Below the pieces are notes generated by a model. It had not been told where the DNA came from, searched no databases, and saw only the letters and a program-made list of their open reading frames with translations. Below are positions 2,474 to 37,000 of a stretch of DNA of 39,110 nucleotides, piece after piece. Positions within the stretch are counted from its first letter, which is position 1; every line of letters starts with the position of its first letter. A program made the translations under genes and the position numbers. This stretch comes from Minisyncoccota bacterium. Its GTDB lineage: Bacteria > Patescibacteriota > Minisyncoccia > Phycocordibacterales > PALSA-1337. The stretch covers positions 20,390 through 59,499 of the forward strand of contig JAGOVB010000003.1 of NCBI GenBank assembly GCA_018060945.1, in the 5' to 3' direction.

Positions 2474-2486
2474 TAGAGTAAATGCC
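2474..2486 (+). promoter_or_regulatory. Extended -10 placing ileS transcription start at its ATG
   Basis: TGATAGAGT gives a TG-n-TAGAGT extended -10 (hexamer 2474-2479); 7 nt separate it from the ATG at 2487. That spacing puts +1 at or next to the start codon, i.e. a leaderless mRNA, as seen at many other genes here. The hexamer is only a moderate match. Confidence 0.45.
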
Positions 2487-5400: not shown

Positions 5401-5810
5401 TTGGTCTCGAAGCTCGGACTCGATTCAGTATAAAAGTGCGACAACCACTCGCAAAACTTTCTGTACGTGAGCTCGTCAGTGCAGAGTTTGTCGAACTGAT
5501 CAAGGATGAAGTAAACGTAAAAACAGTTGTAGAAGACAAAGAAGTAAAAGGGGAAGTGCTCCTCGACCATGTCATCACTCCTGAGCTCAAAGAAGAAGGA
5601 GACGTACGAGAGTTCCTTCGACTCGTCCAAGATCTGCGAAAAGAAAAAGGATTAAAACTGGGTGAGCCAGCAAAACTCGCTGTGGCAACTGATGAAAAAA
5701 CAAAAGCATTGATCGAGAAAAACAAACCTCTCCTTCTCAAAGTTGCGCAGATAAAAGAAGTTACATTCACACTCTCTGATGCTGGAACGACGATGACTAT
5801 CGAACGCTAA
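2487..5810 (+). CDS. ileS: Isoleucyl-tRNA synthetase (IleS2 type) with inserted histidine-phosphatase domain
   Basis: Charges tRNA-Ile; 1107 aa. The start at 2487 (MNEAKS) is chosen because the 41 residues in frame upstream would be translated through the small-RNA terminator and do not look like IleRS. HYGH is at residues 52-55 and KMSKS at 771-775; the core wording (GWDCHGLP, FGRWVDMDNDYRTMD, VFDCWFESGSMPFA) is that of the eukaryote-like IleS2 class. The CP1 editing domain is present (AWTTTPWTLPGNAALAV). The striking feature is an insertion at about residues 472-665, between GAPLPVW and FHRPYIDEV, that is a complete histidine-phosphatase/phosphoglycerate-mutase-like domain: RHG at 483-485, Arg535 (SPFFRTKETA), Glu562 (LAEVDAM), His625 (IISHNTP). 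All expected catalytic residues are in place and the frame is unbroken. The anticodon-binding domain follows. The stop overlaps the recO start (TAATG). The insert's role is unknown. Confidence 0.95.
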   Translation: MNEAKSTHAEREERILEYWKQDGTFQKSLEKDSPKGDFVFYDGPPFATGTPHYGHLLTGTIKDVIPRYKTMQGYHVPRRWGWDCHGLPLENLIEKELGLKTKKDIEELGIENFNDAARNAVLRYAHIWKEVVPRFGRWVDMDNDYRTMDSSYTESVWWAFKTLHDKGLVYEGYKSMQLCPRCGTTLSNFEVNQGYKDITDISVYVKFKIEPNTFLLAWTTTPWTLPGNAALAVGPDITYAKIKIGDDFYILAKERLVVIKDAYTVEKEMLGKDLVGTKYTPVFDAYIKEGKVYPAEFVTTTDGTGIVHIAPAFGQDDYDLGKKYDLKFIQHVTPDGKMTVVPFEGMDAKPKDDHQRTDVEVIKYLAGKGTLFAKEKLIHSYPHCWRCDTPLLNYASSSWFVKVPEIKNKLVSENKKVHWVPESVGANRFGNWLEGARDWAISRSRYWGAPLPVWKSKTETKIIASLSDIQKACKPRNNILLMRHGEIESNKNNLISADIHKKEGLTENGKKQVKKSAESLKNKKIDLVFISPFFRTKETAKIVAGVLDLKSEHIKEDVRLAEVDAMDFQGRPWSDILNMYRDRKEWFDRKIVGLETLSEVRERVGSFVYEIDKKYKDKNILIISHNTPLKIVQALSEGKDDDCDIELFDNAEVRALHFTQLPRNREYKIDFHRPYIDEVVLHDSKGHEMKRVPEVFDCWFESGSMPFASQPVRPKWFGKIKGYPAQFIAEGLDQTRGWFYSMLVLGTALFGKSPYENVIVNGLVLAEDGKKMSKSLKNYPDPMDVVNKFGADAIRYFMLLSPAMAGEDLRFSEKGVDEVVKKVINRLDNVVTFFEMYSRSEAASVRSTNILDKWIMARLHETAHIVTEGMDKYELHIATRPFNDFIDDLSTWYLRRSRDRFKDGDVQAIQTTKYILTELSKLLAPFMPFFAEDMYQRLGNTESVHLASWPAPQSVDQKVIVEMKKTRDIVTFGLEARTRFSIKVRQPLAKLSVRELVSAEFVELIKDEVNVKTVVEDKEVKGEVLLDHVITPELKEEGDVREFLRLVQDLRKEKGLKLGEPAKLAVATDEKTKALIEKNKPLLLKVAQIKEVTFTLSDAGTTMTIER

Positions 5811-6295
5811 TGGCGTACACCGTACACACGACTGAAGGCTTTATTCTTTCAAGTGCTCCGATCGGGGAAGCAAATCGTATATACCATATATTTACTCGAG
5901 AATTTGGAATGATTATCGCTACTGCCCAGGGAGTGCGTCTCAACAAATCAAAACTACGCCCACACTTATTGGACTATAGCTTTTCGTCTGTTTCTTTAGT
6001 CAGAGGAAAAGAGTTTTGGAGGATTACGAGCGCCTCAAGCACCAACAAAAATACAAATAAAATATACATTCAAATTTTAACCATCATAAAAAGATTACTC
6101 CAAGGAGAAGGGGAACATGAGGTCCTTTTTGATTATTTAAAACAAGAATTATTCAAAGAAAATTTAGACGAAACAGATATTATGATAAAAATCCTAACAG
6201 ACCTGGGTTATGTAAGTGTAAATGAAACAAAAGGTGCAGACAAAACTAAGCTTGTAAGCTTGATCAATAAGGGCTTGAAAGAAAGCCAACTATGA
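5810..6295 (+). CDS. recO: DNA repair protein RecO, short form
   Basis: RecO loads RecA on SSB-coated single-stranded DNA in the RecFOR pathway. The N-terminal OB-fold signature is clear (TEGFILSSAPIGEANRIYHIFTRE, then GMIIATAQGVR and SKLRPHLLDYS, given here in pieces of the first 60 residues). At 161 aa it is much shorter than the usual 230-250. The C-terminal helical part is cut down and the Cys4 zinc site seen in some RecO proteins is absent. It starts on the last base of the ileS stop, so it is probably coupled to ileS. ssb and recA also lie in this window. It could be a reduced but working RecO, as expected in a small genome. Confidence 0.85.
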   Translation: MAYTVHTTEGFILSSAPIGEANRIYHIFTREFGMIIATAQGVRLNKSKLRPHLLDYSFSSVSLVRGKEFWRITSASSTNKNTNKIYIQILTIIKRLLQGEGEHEVLFDYLKQELFKENLDETDIMIKILTDLGYVSVNETKGADKTKLVSLINKGLKESQL

Positions 6296-6308
6296 TATAA
6301 TTCATGAA
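6294..6308 (+). promoter_or_regulatory. Extended -10, leaderless start
   Basis: TGATATAAT (hexamer 6296-6301) is a perfect extended -10, 7 nt before the ATG at 6309. An ATG at 6304 opens only a two-codon frame, so 6309 is the likely start. Confidence 0.65.
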
Positions 6309-8222
6309 ATGAATGAAGAAAGTAAGCTCTCGAAGCTCCAAAAAAGTCTATATTCTCGAAATAGACCTGAAACAGCCCATTCTACAAAGGTCTCGTTTAA
6401 ACCTGAAGAGAGCAATGTACCGACCGACTGGCAGCATCCAGAGGAAAGTTTTGAAGAACGGCCTGTGGAGTATGCAGATACTGGTATGTCATTTTTTACA
6501 AAATTCTTTATAGGGTCCCTCATATTTTTTGTTCTTGCATTGGGGATGAGTCTCATCTTTCTTTTTAAAGGTGCAAACATCGTGTCTGCTGACAATATCG
6601 ATATTTCTGTTTCCGGGCCACTTTCTACAGGAGCCGGGGATGAGTTTCCGTTTGATGTCCAGGTATATAATAAAAATAACATCAAACTCGAAGTGGTTGA
6701 TTTGAGTGTCGAGTTTCCGTCAGGCACTGTAAATCCAGATGATACAAGTGCAGAATACAAACGGTACCAACAAGTATTGCCTGACATCGAGCCTGGTGCC
6801 TATGCGCAAGAAACAATTCGAACTATTTTGTATGGAGAGGAAAATAGTAAAAAAACAATCATGATAAAAGTGGAGTACCGTATCAAGGGCTCAAATGCTC
6901 TGTATTACAAAGAAAAGCCATACGAGGTGATCATAAACGCTGCACCAGTATCGATGACCGTCACTTCATTTAAAGAAATTCAGTCAAATCAAGAATTTGA
7001 AGTCACAGTACAAGTATCATCAAACTCGCAGCAAGTATTAAAAAATATGATGCTTCACGCGTACTATCCGTTTGGGTTTACTTTCACTAGTGCTGATGTA
7101 AAGCCACTTACTGATAATTCCACATGGAGACTTGGTGACCTAAAACCTCAAGAAAAAAAGACAATAAAATTCAAAGGAAAAATAGAAGGTCAAGATGAAG
7201 AAGAGCGTGTCTTTAGGTTTTCGACCGGGTTACAAAGCGCAAAGAGTGACAAAGTCATCGGGACTGAATTTGTTTCATCGAATCAAGCTCTCAGAATAAA
7301 AAAACCATTCCTTACCACAAAGCTGACCCTCAATGATTCAGAAGGAAATGGTGACTATGTAGCACAGTACGATCAGCCAGTCACCGCAGAGATAGAATGG
7401 TTCAACAACCTACCTACAAATGTGACTGATGCCGAAATACGGGTAAAGTTTTCAGGTATGGTCTTTGACAAAGACTCTGTCGATCCAGATGAAGGTTTGT
7501 TTAAATCGGCTGACAATGAGATCGTTTGGAATACTCAGACCACTAAAGGACTGAGGAGTATTGGAGCTGGTGAGAGTGGTCGAGTAACATTTAAATTTAT
7601 TCCACGATCAAAAGGTGCTCAAACAAACCCAACCATGACCGCAGACGTCAGTATAAAGGGTCGACGAGTGTCAGAGGAAAACGTCCCGGAAAATCTAGTA
7701 TCAAATACGGTTAGAAATATAAAGATTGCATCGAGCGCAGGCCTCGGAGCTGTTATCGTTCGATCTACTGGTCCATTCCAAAATACAGGACCGATACCGC
7801 CAAAAGCCGAGCAAGTAACCACTTACACAGTTATTTGGACACTAAACAACACCTCAAGCGGCATTGCTGATGCGGTGGCGACTTCAAAGTTACCTCCGTA
7901 TGTAAAGTGGGTAGGCAAAATAAGTCCAGAGACAGAGGACATCAAGTACGATACAAAGGATGGTTCAATTGTCTGGAATGTAGGAGATGTTCCAGCGTAC
8001 ACAGGATTTGGTGCTGCTCGCCGAGAAGTGGCGTTCCAAATATCATTTGAGCCAAGTGTAAGTCAGGTGGGTAAAAATACACTGGCACTAGTCGAGGACG
8101 CAGCTTTTAAAGCGATTGACATATTCACTGGCACTACGCTATATTCAAGCAGAAGTGAGCTCACCACACGTTTCAGTACTGACCCACAGTTTAAAAATGG
8201 GGACGACACTATCATACGATAA
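6309..8222 (+). CDS. Membrane-anchored extracellular beta-rich protein, function unknown
   Basis: 637 aa. A hydrophilic cytoplasmic stretch of about 60 residues is followed by one transmembrane helix (about 62-87, rich in F, I and L); the remaining ~550 residues are then outside the membrane. That part looks like repeated Ig-like/CARDB or DUF11-type beta domains: recurring phrases such as LSVEFPSGTVNPD, GRVTFKFIPRS and VTTYTVIWTLNNTSSGIADA, the last a typical DUF11-style 'conserved repeat' line. No catalytic motif was seen. It has its own leaderless-type promoter, and its stop overlaps the glyS start (TAATG), so glyS translation probably depends on this mRNA. It may be a cell-surface scaffold or adhesin; that is inference from architecture only. 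Confidence 0.75.
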   Translation: MNEESKLSKLQKSLYSRNRPETAHSTKVSFKPEESNVPTDWQHPEESFEERPVEYADTGMSFFTKFFIGSLIFFVLALGMSLIFLFKGANIVSADNIDISVSGPLSTGAGDEFPFDVQVYNKNNIKLEVVDLSVEFPSGTVNPDDTSAEYKRYQQVLPDIEPGAYAQETIRTILYGEENSKKTIMIKVEYRIKGSNALYYKEKPYEVIINAAPVSMTVTSFKEIQSNQEFEVTVQVSSNSQQVLKNMMLHAYYPFGFTFTSADVKPLTDNSTWRLGDLKPQEKKTIKFKGKIEGQDEEERVFRFSTGLQSAKSDKVIGTEFVSSNQALRIKKPFLTTKLTLNDSEGNGDYVAQYDQPVTAEIEWFNNLPTNVTDAEIRVKFSGMVFDKDSVDPDEGLFKSADNEIVWNTQTTKGLRSIGAGESGRVTFKFIPRSKGAQTNPTMTADVSIKGRRVSEENVPENLVSNTVRNIKIASSAGLGAVIVRSTGPFQNTGPIPPKAEQVTTYTVIWTLNNTSSGIADAVATSKLPPYVKWVGKISPETEDIKYDTKDGSIVWNVGDVPAYTGFGAARREVAFQISFEPSVSQVGKNTLALVEDAAFKAIDIFTGTTLYSSRSELTTRFSTDPQFKNGDDTIIR

Positions 8223-15234: not shown

Positions 15235-15249
15235 TGATATAATTTTGCT
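15235..15249 (+). promoter_or_regulatory. Extended -10, leaderless start
   Basis: TGATATAAT (hexamer 15238-15243) exactly matches TGnTATAAT, 6 nt before the ATG at 15250. It sits between a strong terminator and the gene, so it is very likely the only promoter. Confidence 0.75.
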
Positions 15250-15655: not shown

Positions 15656-15671
15656 TGATATACTTGTGGAT
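15656..15671 (+). promoter_or_regulatory. Extended -10, leaderless start
   Basis: TGATATACT (hexamer 15659-15664), 7 nt before the ATG at 15672. This favours ATG 15672 over the in-frame GTG at 15666, which would fall upstream of +1. Confidence 0.6.
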
Positions 15672-20303: not shown

Positions 20304-20319
20304 ATAACAATAATATCAT
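20304..20319 (-). promoter_or_regulatory. Extended -10, leaderless ftsK start
   Basis: Minus strand TGATATTAT (hexamer 20315-20310), 6 nt before the ftsK ATG at 20303. Confidence 0.6.
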
Positions 20320-23537: not shown

Positions 23538-23549
23538 TATAATATAAGC
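23538..23549 (+). promoter_or_regulatory. Consensus -10, leaderless start of 35-aa gene
   Basis: TATAAT (23538-23543), 6 nt before the ATG at 23550, directly downstream of a terminator. Confidence 0.65.
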
Positions 23550-27262: not shown

Positions 27263-27280
27263 TGCTAGAATAAACCCGCT
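27263..27280 (+). promoter_or_regulatory. Extended -10, near-leaderless start
   Basis: TGCTAGAAT (hexamer TAGAAT 27266-27271), 9 nt before the ATG at 27281; predicted leader of 0-3 nt. Confidence 0.5.
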
Positions 27281-28910: not shown

Positions 28911-28924
28911 GATTTCCTAATAGG
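28911..28924 (+). other. 23S processing stem, 5' strand
   Basis: GATTTCCTAATAGG is perfectly complementary over 14 nt to 32433-32446; the pair closes the 23S precursor for RNase III-type cutting. Confidence 0.85.
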
Positions 28925-29440
28925 AAATTTAAGAGCATATGGTGGATGCCTTGGCTAAAAGAGGCGATGAAGGACGCGACAGGCGGCGATACGCTTCGGG
29001 GAGGTGCCTAGTGACCGTTATATCCGAAGATTTCCGAATGGGGAAACCCCTCTCTTTCGAGAGAGACACATAACTTGATTATGTGAGCGCACCCTGGGAA
29101 GTAAAACATTTCAGTACCAGGTGGAAAAGAGACAAATATGTATTTCGCAAGTAGCGGCGAGCGAAAACGAAATAGCCCAAACTCATCCTTTATCATACGG
29201 CGCACGTAAGTGTTTCGTATGATAAAGGATGGGGGTTGTAAGGTGGGGACGTGATATTTATATCAGAAAAGTTACAAAATTATTTAATAGTAGAATGTTC
29301 TGGAAAGAACAGCCCTAGTAGGTGATAGCCCTGTAAACGAAATTAAATAGTCTTTTTTGTTCCCATTCTTGAGTACCTCGAGACACGAATAGCTCGGGGG
29401 AATCTGCCGGAACTAACCGGCAAGGCTAAATACTCTTTTA

Positions 29441-29482
<42 letters not shown>

Positions 29483-30053
29483 GCCCGTTAAGGGCGTTGA
29501 AATAATCCTGAAACCATATGTTTACAAGGAGTCGAAGCGGGTGCAAGTCCGCGACGGCGTGCCTATTGAAGAATGAGCCAACGAGTTTTAGCATACTGCA
29601 GGCTAAGGTCGAGAGACTGGAGCCATAGGGAAACCGAGTATGAATAGTGCGATCGTAGTATGCTAAAGACCCGAAGCCAGGTGAGCTTGCCTTGAGCAGG
29701 ATGAACTTCTGAGAAATCAGAAGGAAGGTCCGAACGATAGAGTTGTGCAATTCTCTTCGATGACTTGAGGTAAGGAGTGAAAAGCTAATCGAACCTGGTA
29801 ATAGCTGGTTTTCTCCGAAATAGCTTTTGGGCTAGCGTTAGACGTACCCACGTGGGGTAGAGCACTGGAAGGTCTTGACAGGTCGAAAGATCCCGAGACC
29901 TATCAAACTCCGAATACACGTGGTCAAATATCTAGCAGTTAGACGGTGGGGGCTAAGCTCCATGCGTCAAAAGGGAAACAGCCCGGACCTCCATTTAAGG
30001 TCCCTAAATTTACGTTAAGTACACTTAAGGTGGTGAAGTTTCTTAAACAATGA

Positions 30054-30085
<32 letters not shown>

Positions 30086-30891
30086 GAAAGCGTAACAGCT
30101 CACTCATCGAGAGACTTTGCGCCGCAGATAATCGGGGTTTAAACGTAATACCGAAACTGAGGATGCGTTCTTTCTTCGGAAAGATCGCGTGGTAGGAGAA
30201 TTTTCTGTTCTGCGTTGAAGGTGAAGGGGTGACCCACACTGGAGCGTACAGAAGTAAGAATGTTGGCACAAGTAACCGCAATGCGGGTGAGATACCCGCA
30301 CGTCGAAAGATCAAGGTTTCCTTTGCGATGTAGATCAGCGAAGGGTTAGTCGGGCCTAAGGGAATGGCAAACGCCGTACCCGATGGACACATGGTTAATA
30401 TTCCATGACTTTTACGTAGAATGAGGGAGGGACGAAGTGCAGTATGTATCGCATGTTATTGGATTTGTGTGCATTCTATAAGGGCGCTCTCTAGGTAAAT
30501 CCGGAGACTGATTTAAATATCGGGTCTAAGTAGCGTGCAAATGTTGGGGTTCGCCCTTGCAAATGATACAAAGCGCGCTTTCGAGAAAATCTTCTAAGTT
30601 TATCTACGTAAAAACCGTACCGTAAACCGACACAGGTGATCAGGGCGAGTAGCCTAAGACGAACGAGTGAGAGGTCTCCAAGGAACTCGGCAAAAAAGCA
30701 GCCGTAACTTCGGAATAAGGCTTGCCCATAATAAAATATGGGCCGCAGCGAAAGTATCTCTGGCGACTGTTTATCAAAAACACAGCTCCCTGCGAACACG
30801 TAAGTGGATGTATAGGGGGTGACACTTGACCAATGCCGGTAGGTCAAACAACGGCGGTGCGATTATATCAAGCTGACTGTTGTAAGCCCCG

Positions 30892-30926
<35 letters not shown>

Positions 30927-31146
30927 TCTCGGTTTATCTTCGGATGAACCGAGACGGACTAGGACTGTTATATAGCAAAAGTGTAGTTTAGAGAAAACAG
31001 ATCAAATATGTTACATAAACAAGCTACCTGCAATTCAAGAAATTGATTGTGGAGTCCATGTGGGCAAATAGAGACCAGCACCACACATCCGACTTCCGAA
31101 AGGGAAGGATGAAGATAGAGTCCTACTGTGCTTAAAGGAATAGTAG
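30927..31146 (+). ncRNA. Group I intron in 23S at site L1931, no ORF
   Basis: The 5' exon stops at CCTAAGGT (U1931 in E. coli numbering) and the 3' exon resumes at AGCGAAATTCC. The last 5' exon base is U and the last intron base is G, as group I splicing requires. The core R element AGAGACCAGC (31070-31079), a P8 hairpin with GAAA loop, and the S element GAAGATAGAGTCC (31111-31123) are in the right order; P9 (CTACT/AGTAG) closes at the end. The intron opens with an 8-bp hairpin TCTCGGTT/AACCGAGA capped by TTCG. 220 nt, too small for a homing endonuclease. The guide pairing P1 is not clean by eye. Confidence 0.9.
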
Positions 31147-31809
31147 AGCGAAATTCCTTGTCAGGTAAGTTCTGACGCGCACGAATAGTGTAACGACTGG
31201 AGAACTGTCTCGGAGACTTGCTCGGTGAAAATACAGTACCGGTGAAGATGCCGGTTACCTGCAGTTAGACGAAAAGACCCTAGAAGCTTTACTGCAATTT
31301 TTCGTTGAGTGTATATTTATTATGCGTAGCGTAGATGGTAGGATTTGAAGCTCACCTCTCGGGGTGGGTGGATCCGTCGATGAAACACCATTCTTAATTG
31401 ATATACATTCTAACCACAGTGGAAAAACCACCGTGAGACAGCGGATGATGGGCAGTTTTAGTGGGGCGCTATCCTCCTAAAAAGTAACGGAGGAGCCTAT
31501 TAAGGTCAGCTAGCCGTGAATGGAAACCATGGCGATAGTGTATAGGCACAAGCTGGCTTGACTGTGAGACGTACTTGTCGAGCAGACGCGAAAGCGGAGC
31601 TAAGTGAACCGACCTTTCGCATTAGATGCGGGGGAAGATTATCGGATAAAAGCTACTCTAGGGATAACAGGCTGGTTGCGCCTGAGCGTTCATAGCGGCG
31701 GCGCAGTTCGGCACCTCGATGTCGGCTCAACTTATCCTGGGGCTGGAGAAGGTCCCAAGGGTTTGGCTGTTCGCCAATTAAAAAGTTACGCGAGCTGGGT
31801 TCAGACCGT

Positions 31810-32149
31810 TTAGTAGTTAAATACGACACGGTCTCGAGTGTGAGAAATGCATGTGAGTGAAGAAGAGTGTTGTGATCTTTGACTGTTAAACAGTCTGAAT
31901 CACTTCGAGTCTTTTTCGTCTAAAAAAAGATAATAAGTATAGGAAGTTTGACCAATCATACACGGCGGTCCTCCATAGAAATATGGAAGTGATCAAGTCG
32001 ATTAGTATCGGTGGAAGTCCATTTGCGCCCGCGAATGGATCATACCGAGGGAAGTTTGTGAATTTCACAGACACCCGTAGAGACTAAACATCGACCATCC
32101 GAAAGGATGAAGCTATAGTCCATTGCAACGAGTAATCGTTGGTAACAAG
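31810..32149 (+). ncRNA. Group I intron in 23S at site L2593, no ORF
   Basis: Interrupts the peptidyl-transferase region between CAGACCGT (U2593) and CGTGAGACAGG. 5' exon ends in U and intron ends in G (32149). The R element GTAGAGACTAAA (from 32078), a P8 hairpin CATCC-GAAA-GGATG, and the S element GAAGCTATAGTCC (32109-32121) are textbook. An internal guide ACGGTCT near 31837 is fully complementary to the exon AGACCGT; it would pair the splice-site U with A rather than the usual G. About 340 nt with no coding frame. Confidence 0.92.
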
Positions 32150-32291
32150 CGTGAGACAGGTTGGTCTCCTATCTACTGCAGGCGTTGATTCTTGAGGAGA
32201 TTTGACTCTAGTACGAGAGGACCGAGTTGAACTGACCTCTGGTGTATCTGCTGTCCTGCCAAGGGCAACGCAGAGTAGCTATGTCGGGCAT

Positions 32292-32324
<33 letters not shown>

Positions 32325-32432
32325 AGCTCCAAGATTAGGAATCGTTTGAGATCCGTAAGAGATGATTACGTTGATAGGCTTTAGGTGTACGCACAGTAAT
32401 GTGTTCAGCCGTGAAGTACTAATCCATCGACT

Positions 32433-32446
32433 CCTATTAGGAAATC
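32433..32446 (+). other. 23S processing stem, 3' strand
   Basis: CCTATTAGGAAATC, perfect complement of 28911-28924. Confidence 0.85.
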
Positions 32447-32516
32447 TGGAAGTCACAGTTACAAAGCATGTTCCAAACTTTTCATTTAAACAAAAAAACC
32501 TAGTATTTGAATATTC

Positions 32517-32631
32517 TGTTCTGGTGATTCGGCGCTATGGAACCACCCGTTCTCATTCCGAACACGGAAGTTAAACGTAGTAGCGGCGATGATAGTCTCT
32601 ATGGGGCAAAAGTAGCTAGTCGCCAGAACAG
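32517..32631 (+). rRNA. rrf: 5S ribosomal RNA
   Basis: About 115 nt. Helix I: TGTTCTGGTGA (32517-32527) pairs with TCGCCAGAACA (32620-32630), one G-T pair. The conserved loop B/C region CCGAACACGGAAGTTAAACG and the GGCGATGATAGT segment identify it. It follows 23S by about 75 nt with no tRNA between. No clear terminator; the -10 of the next gene starts 12 nt later. Confidence 0.95.
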
Positions 32632-32642
32632 AGTGTTTAATA

Positions 32643-32654
32643 TATAATTCCTAT
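32643..32654 (+). promoter_or_regulatory. Consensus -10, leaderless start
   Basis: TATAAT (32643-32648), 6 nt before the ATG at 32655, right after 5S. Confidence 0.65.
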
Positions 32655-35669: not shown

Positions 35670-35676
35670 ATACATT

Positions 35677-35697
35677 AGTATAGTATACTATTTCCAC
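35677..35697. promoter_or_regulatory. Divergent overlapping -10 elements, both leaderless
   Basis: A 12-bp palindrome ATAGTATACTAT (35680-35691) holds TATACT on the plus strand (35684-35689, 8 nt before ATG 35698) and two TATACT hexamers on the minus strand (35687-35682 and 35682-35677, 6 and 7 nt before ATGs at 35675 and 35669). Confidence 0.6.
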
Positions 35698-36986: not shown

Positions 36987-37000
36987 TATAGTACTTCATT
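36987..37000 (+). promoter_or_regulatory. -10, near-leaderless secD start
   Basis: TATAGT (36987-36992), 8 nt before the ATG at 37001. Confidence 0.45.

Follow-up and report, generated by a model that had tools for sequence, protein, structure and literature searches.

A Paceibacteria order without an anti-Shine-Dalgarno sequence probably relies heavily on leaderless initiation from promoters adjacent to the start codon

The closest described counterpart of the arrangement considered here is the "-10-motif" of Deinococcus-Thermus, a TANNNT hexamer that precedes the ORF by approximately 6-7 bp for almost a third of the genes in D. radiodurans, and that is read in the accessible text of that report as leaderless promoters (PMC12340547). 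Leaderless mRNAs are also frequent in archaea and Actinobacteria (PMC5397173). Organisms that are scarce in Shine-Dalgarno (SD) sequences and without CCUCC in the 16S rRNA form category iv of PMC10783764, and include Campbellbacteria, Wolfebacteria, Absconditabacteria, and Peregrinibacteria; these CPR cases comprise one or two genomes each and are not tied to -10-adjacent promoters in the accessible text of that paper. Flavobacteriia are a further bacterial case of CCUCC loss (PMC10783764). Our literature search, which covered open-access journal papers, found no paper tying leaderless genes or promoters to Patescibacteria. Archaea have a different promoter machinery, Actinobacteria retain the anti-SD, and we know of no -10-adjacent leaderless arrangement in Flavobacteriia.

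The window, by which we mean the whole 39,110-nt stretch of DNA analyzed, comes from contig 27 of a genome of 629 kb in 33 contigs that is 89% complete and was placed in its order by kinship codes and a 16S tree. At 6294-6311, the end of recO runs into the start of a gene for a 637-aa protein with matches in 58 of 60 relatives (Table 1). For this one gene, 30 loci were fetched with our own included, and identity to the window's protein was 41-54% across the 29 relatives. A usable in-frame ATG was found in 27 of the loci, and in 24 of these, our own among them, a TAnnnT hexamer stood 6-9 nt before it, compared to 4 of 27 at the control distance of 16-19 nt. The first-pass annotation had proposed that the position of the -10 element can be used to fix start codons, and the finding that the element marks the start of this gene in those 24 orthologues supports such use. 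The three loci without a usable ATG have, as judged by eye, a -10 element followed by GTG at a like distance. GTG may therefore serve in relatives, and the restriction to ATG described below may hold for this genome alone.

The 637-aa gene was one of eleven sites that had been listed in the window, and at all eleven an ATG was found to be preceded at 6-9 nt by a TAnnnT hexamer. TG at the extended position, described as frequent, was present as TGn at six of them. For the minus-strand gene beginning at 35675, the hexamer was indeed found at 6 nt, but it occupies 35682-35687 and not the listed position of 35677. This hexamer is part of a palindromic TATA block that lies before two divergent starts, and a second divergent pair on one such block was seen at 1571 (minus) and 1594 (plus) of locus L005. 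The start codons are 23 nt apart in both pairs, and the shared block apparently serves as a leaderless promoter in each direction. Gaps of 21-25 nt were seen in 5 of 35 divergent pairs in this genome and in 0 of 49 in order relatives.

Table 1. Candidate promoter elements and the start codons next to them in the window.
Feature	Position	Strand	Basis
recO stop codon TGA, which also supplies TGn to an extended -10	6293..6295	+	ORF 5810-6295, RecO_N match, sequence
TATAAT -10 element, 7 nt before ATG 6309	6296..6301	+	sequence; like element in 24/27 orthologues
637-aa DUF11-domain protein, with ATG 6309 as its predicted leaderless start	6309..8222	+	ORF, domain match, orthologues
TGA-TAGAGT extended -10, 7 nt before ileS ATG 2487	2474..2479	+	sequence scan
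TGA-TATAAT, 6 nt before ATG 15250	15238..15243	+	sequence scan
TGA-TATACT, 7 nt before ATG 15672	15659..15664	+	sequence scan
TGA-TATTAT, 6 nt before ftsK ATG 20303	20310..20315	-	sequence scan
TATAAT, 6 nt before ATG 23550	23538..23543	+	sequence reading
TGC-TAGAAT, 9 nt before ATG 27281	27266..27271	+	sequence scan
TATAAT, 6 nt before ATG 32655, directly past the 5S gene	32643..32648	+	sequence scan
Palindromic TATA block with two divergent starts: minus ATG 35675 (hexamer 35682-35687), plus ATG 35698 (hexamer 35684-35689)	35682..35689	both	sequence
TATAGT, 8 nt before secD ATG 37001	36987..36992	+	sequence scan

The claim that such elements are widespread was then examined in a 255-kb sample of the genome, consisting of the window and 20 other stretches (216 kb). 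ORFs were called as the longest non-overlapping frames with the first in-frame ATG as the start, so that starts were set by rule; those within the window's 23S-5S stretch were left out, and sets of at least 80 aa (the looser set) and at least 100 aa were kept. The claim was borne out by a sharp, ATG-only, and frame-specific peak at the leaderless distance. In the set of at least 100 aa, 49 of 233 genes had a TAnnnT ending exactly 6 nt ahead of their first in-frame ATG, whereas shuffling the upstream 40 nt 300 times with dinucleotides preserved gave 8.2 ± 2.8 with a maximum of 20. The looser set gave 51 of 252. Within the window alone, the hexamer was found at exactly 6 nt in 9 of 30 genes and at 6-9 nt in 14 of 30, whereas two control distances gave 1 and 3 of 30. 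When all early codons were considered, the hexamer was at 6 nt before 59 of 476 in-frame ATG codons, and no peak was found at 6 nt before out-of-frame ATG (6/496 and 3/132), in-frame GTG (6/279), or in-frame TTG (3/273). The same pipeline applied to E. coli K-12 as a control gave 0 of 40 at 6 nt and SD words in 9 of 40. An early in-frame ATG with TAnnnT at 6-8 nt was found in 89 of 236 genes and at a control distance in 32 of 236, so that approximately a quarter of the genes are in excess of chance under the strict hexamer rule. This may underestimate the leaderless share, because real -10 elements are variable and the starts followed a fixed rule.

The elements had been assigned to genes not coupled to an upstream gene, with TAATG or ATGA overlaps assigned to coupled ones. 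The signal was present at single or divergent genes (31/137 at 6 nt in the looser set), but genes closely following another also had it (20/115 at 6 nt); the corresponding values before out-of-frame ATG were about 3% and 1%. The overlaps were not unusually common: an ATG at a gap of -1 or -4 was seen in 19 of 109 same-strand pairs, and the corresponding counts were 10 of 103 for order relatives and 12 of 88 for the phylum at large. Overlap coupling was thus dropped as a special mode of this genome, being not distinctive against either group, and the split into uncoupled leaderless genes and coupled overlapping genes is too clean.

By its make-up, the upstream element is, as far as sequence alone can tell, a promoter. 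TGn preceded the hexamer in 17 of the 49 peak genes, a minority, compared to 6 of 141 genes having no hexamer at 5-9 nt. Likewise, 17 of the 49 matched the -35 at 4 or more of 6 bases with a spacer of 16-19, compared to 8 when either of two wrong spacers was imposed; the -35 is therefore weak. One protein with sigma-70 region 3 was found in the genome. Region 3.0 of this RpoD reads PVHMVETIAKY, which we take to match the H..E pair with which the E. coli protein reads TGn.

The words most enriched at -19 to -4 in this genome were all -10-like (ATACTA in 14 genes versus 0; TATACT in 17 versus 1.5), and those in the wider phylum were AGGAG/AAGGA. SD words were defined as GGAGG, AGGAG, and GAGGT at -18 to -4, and were judged as words and not by the pairing energies of PMC10783764. 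SD motifs had been described as nearly absent, and this was confirmed: such a word was found at 4 of 230 genes and, when a background window lying farther upstream was used, at 11 of 230. As in Deinococcus-Thermus, TANNNT stands just before the start codon well above chance. By the accessible text of PMC12340547, a GGAG RBS motif serves other Deinococcus genes; in this genome, unlike Deinococcus, the anti-SD is gone and no separate class of GGAG-type RBS genes was found, SD words being at or below background. In two Deinococcus plasmid stretches, a small positive control, annotated starts had the hexamer at 6-7 nt in 5 of 40 and 4 of 37 genes, and the first-ATG rule gave 1 of 70 at 6 nt.

The 16S gene lies at contig 27:59802-61303, its start approximately 300 nt past the end of the window. 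The 16S tail had been pointed to as a check, and there the anti-SD is indeed missing: after helix 45 the tail reads GGATTATTTCAATTTG in place of the usual bacterial GGATCACCTCCTTT, with no CCUCC. Assembly error is unlikely because like tails occur in many separately assembled genomes. Counting genomes with a 16S locus, and excluding six that were unreadable, CCTCC was absent in all 28 readable genomes of the order. Of 46 genomes from other orders of the class, 19 had it intact, 8 had it with one letter changed, and 19 lacked it; of 29 from the rest of the phylum, 27 had it intact and 2 had a one-letter variant. The order forms one clade with an SH-aLRT of 97 in a tree of 103 16S 3' halves. On this tree, which was made quickly, has some long branches, and cannot separate gain from loss, the intact or lost label needs at least 10 changes when one-letter variants are scored as intact. 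Through much of the order, the tail GGAnUAUUUCAA is well conserved. This genome thus resembles category iv in having no CCUCC and few SD genes (PMC10783764, as far as its accessible text goes). It differs from those cases in that the loss extends to every readable genome (28 of 28) in one order and a leaderless promoter signature is present.

Two further features of the tail were considered and rejected. A hairpin replacing the anti-SD in the order is not indicated, the mean folding z of 25 tails being +0.17 against shuffles that preserved base composition only. A structured 3' extension of the 16S rRNA fared no better, as the stretch from helix 45 to GAACGGAACAAAA had no further predicted pairs in a 23-sequence alignment and no Rfam match. 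In anti-SD-intact tails from the wider phylum, the mean folding z by the same measure was -1.58 (23 tails), and CUCC...GGGAG can pair; such a fold would cover the anti-SD in the precursor of these relatives. The near-invariant GAACGGAACAAAA lies 130-260 nt past helix 45 (L001 3155-3167, and the same in most order loci). It is complementary to TTTTGTTCCGTTC, which lies shortly before the 5' end of the 16S gene, and in some loci, as judged by eye, a change in one arm is matched by a change in the other. The two may form a putative processing stem around both the 16S and an unusually long trailer.

We then compared the order with its relatives. In 20-kb stretches from order relatives, 37 of 302 genes had the hexamer at 6 nt over a background of 2.8%, with SD words at 11 versus 10. 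A set of 61 named order-type loci was found by the 16S tail of relatives and includes Taylorbacteria (16), Zambryskibacteria (3), and Nomurabacteria (2), all of which we take to be Parcubacteria/Paceibacteria lineages; it gave 47 of 277 at 6 nt and a small excess of SD words (17/277 versus 6). CCTCC-intact genomes of the wider phylum had the hexamer at 6 nt in 16 of 207 genes over a background of 3.4% (p 0.002) and SD words at 26 versus 4. CCTCC-intact genomes of the class had it in 8 of 146, which was not significant, and SD words at 11 versus 3. At 6 nt this genome differed from each CCTCC-intact group with p below 1e-4, and the pooled order was weakly above the class-intact group (p 0.03) and not significantly different from the phylum-intact group (p 0.11). 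As CCTCC-intact relatives also have an excess at 6 nt, some leaderless promoters probably predate loss of the anti-SD.

Other orders without CCTCC still have SD words (24/216 versus 5), which shows that loss of the anti-SD by itself does not remove SD sequences. Such loss alone therefore does not explain the pattern in this genome. SD words despite the absence of CCTCC were clearest in the genomes G153 (locus L197; 13/62 versus 2) and G088 (L173; 12/60 versus 1). AAGGAGG-type SD genes were seen on the same contig as a CCTCC-less 16S gene in L197 and L173, and also in L187 (G134) and L195 (G160), all from other Paceibacteria orders. A hidden CCTCC exon in the SD-bearing, CCTCC-less genomes was rejected, since the three pattern hits overlie ORFs and none follows a helix-45-like sequence.

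Among the components of translation, IF3 is present in the genome. Its gene (L254 1486-2052, minus strand) has no in-frame ATG near its start and thus seems to use a non-ATG codon, as does E. coli infC. A strong bS1 match was found in 22 of 24 order genomes tested, and none was found in this genome, which is 89% complete, or in G025; this genome had two S1-domain hits, of which one lies in an ORF that we read as NusA-like. In E. coli, bS1 aids leadered mRNAs. The order seems to keep this route, and with bS1 in most of its genomes S1-aided leadered initiation is possible. Matches to bS21 were found in 7 of 24 order genomes compared to 24 of 30 CCTCC-intact genomes, but a diverged bS21-like ORF is present in this genome, so the low count may reflect divergence and not loss. 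Era was rejected as a marker, as only 1 of 79 genomes had a full-length Era and the other matches look, from their tandem pattern, like other GTPases, apparently Der by our own reading. The 23S and 5S genes lie together at window 28917-32628, with the 16S gene approximately 7 kb downstream and protein genes between, and the rRNA genes are therefore not in one operon. Two likely group I introns were seen in the 23S gene (window 30926-31143, E 2e-4; 31887-32142, E 9e-8), both below the Rfam gathering score, and they would account for most of its 3526-nt length.

The hexamers might be thought a product of chance in A/T-rich intergenic DNA, given a G+C content of about 42% in the window. This is refuted for the genome sample by the shuffles, the frame and codon controls, and the conservation among orthologues, leaving chance a negligible explanation. 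It could also be supposed that the A/T-rich block is a leader feature, either unstructured or S1-binding, of mRNAs that have ordinary leaders. Upstream regions are A-rich overall, bS1 is kept in most of the order as noted above, and S1 sites are named by Nakagawa et al., in the accessible text of PMC5397173, as an alternative cause of such biases. A leader feature would nonetheless have to account for TAnnnT in one register, accompanied by TGn and by a correctly spaced -35, a pattern which base shuffles do not reproduce, and for a hexamer that stays near the start across orthologues. We consider it unlikely.

A new anti-SD would have mRNAs pairing with the changed 16S tail (UAUUUCAAUUUG) or with another rRNA site. 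Conservation of the tail through much of the order is in its favor, yet words complementary to the new tail were not enriched at -19 to -4 in the genes of this genome or of the order, and so no replacement pairing is seen. We regard this explanation as very unlikely, more so than a leader feature.

We therefore favor, with a probability of roughly 0.86, the reading that this order of Paceibacteria has no anti-SD and relies heavily on leaderless initiation by way of -10-adjacent promoters. Sigma-70-type promoters, with a -10 element often preceded by TGn and placed 6-9 nt before the ATG, would drive a large share of genes. RNA synthesis would begin at or within approximately 3 nt of the start codon to give an mRNA without a leader, and ribosomes would load onto the 5'-terminal AUG without base pairing to the 16S rRNA. 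SD pairing would be unavailable because the order has lost CCUCC, and the mRNAs of this genome show little or no SD signal. Coupling or unstructured leaders may give ribosomes access to the remaining genes. Placement of transcription start sites at the ATG, and leaderless translation itself, are what we infer from the promoter arrangement. The first-pass annotation had called leaderless initiation a main mode in this organism, and the ATG-only peak, the absence of SD words in this genome, and the missing CCUCC support that wording; they do not support calling it the only mode.

We further infer that leaderless initiation and loss of the anti-SD are related, the former having favored the latter. 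It is somewhat more probable than its converse that the whole order dropped the SD system and fused the starts of transcription and translation, such that the -10 element and not an RBS picks the start codon. The 16S tail would then be free to change, because no mRNA would need it.

If this reading is correct, annotation of a large uncultured group would be improved, as the -10 element would fix starts that offer SD-based gene callers nothing to detect. The order would also provide a bacterial case beside the archaea, in which leaderless mRNA has been linked to CCUCC loss (PMC10783764, in its accessible text). The class as a whole would span the range from an intact CCUCC, by way of one-letter variants, to its complete loss, and in this natural series one could ask what replaces the anti-SD and in which order the parts were lost.
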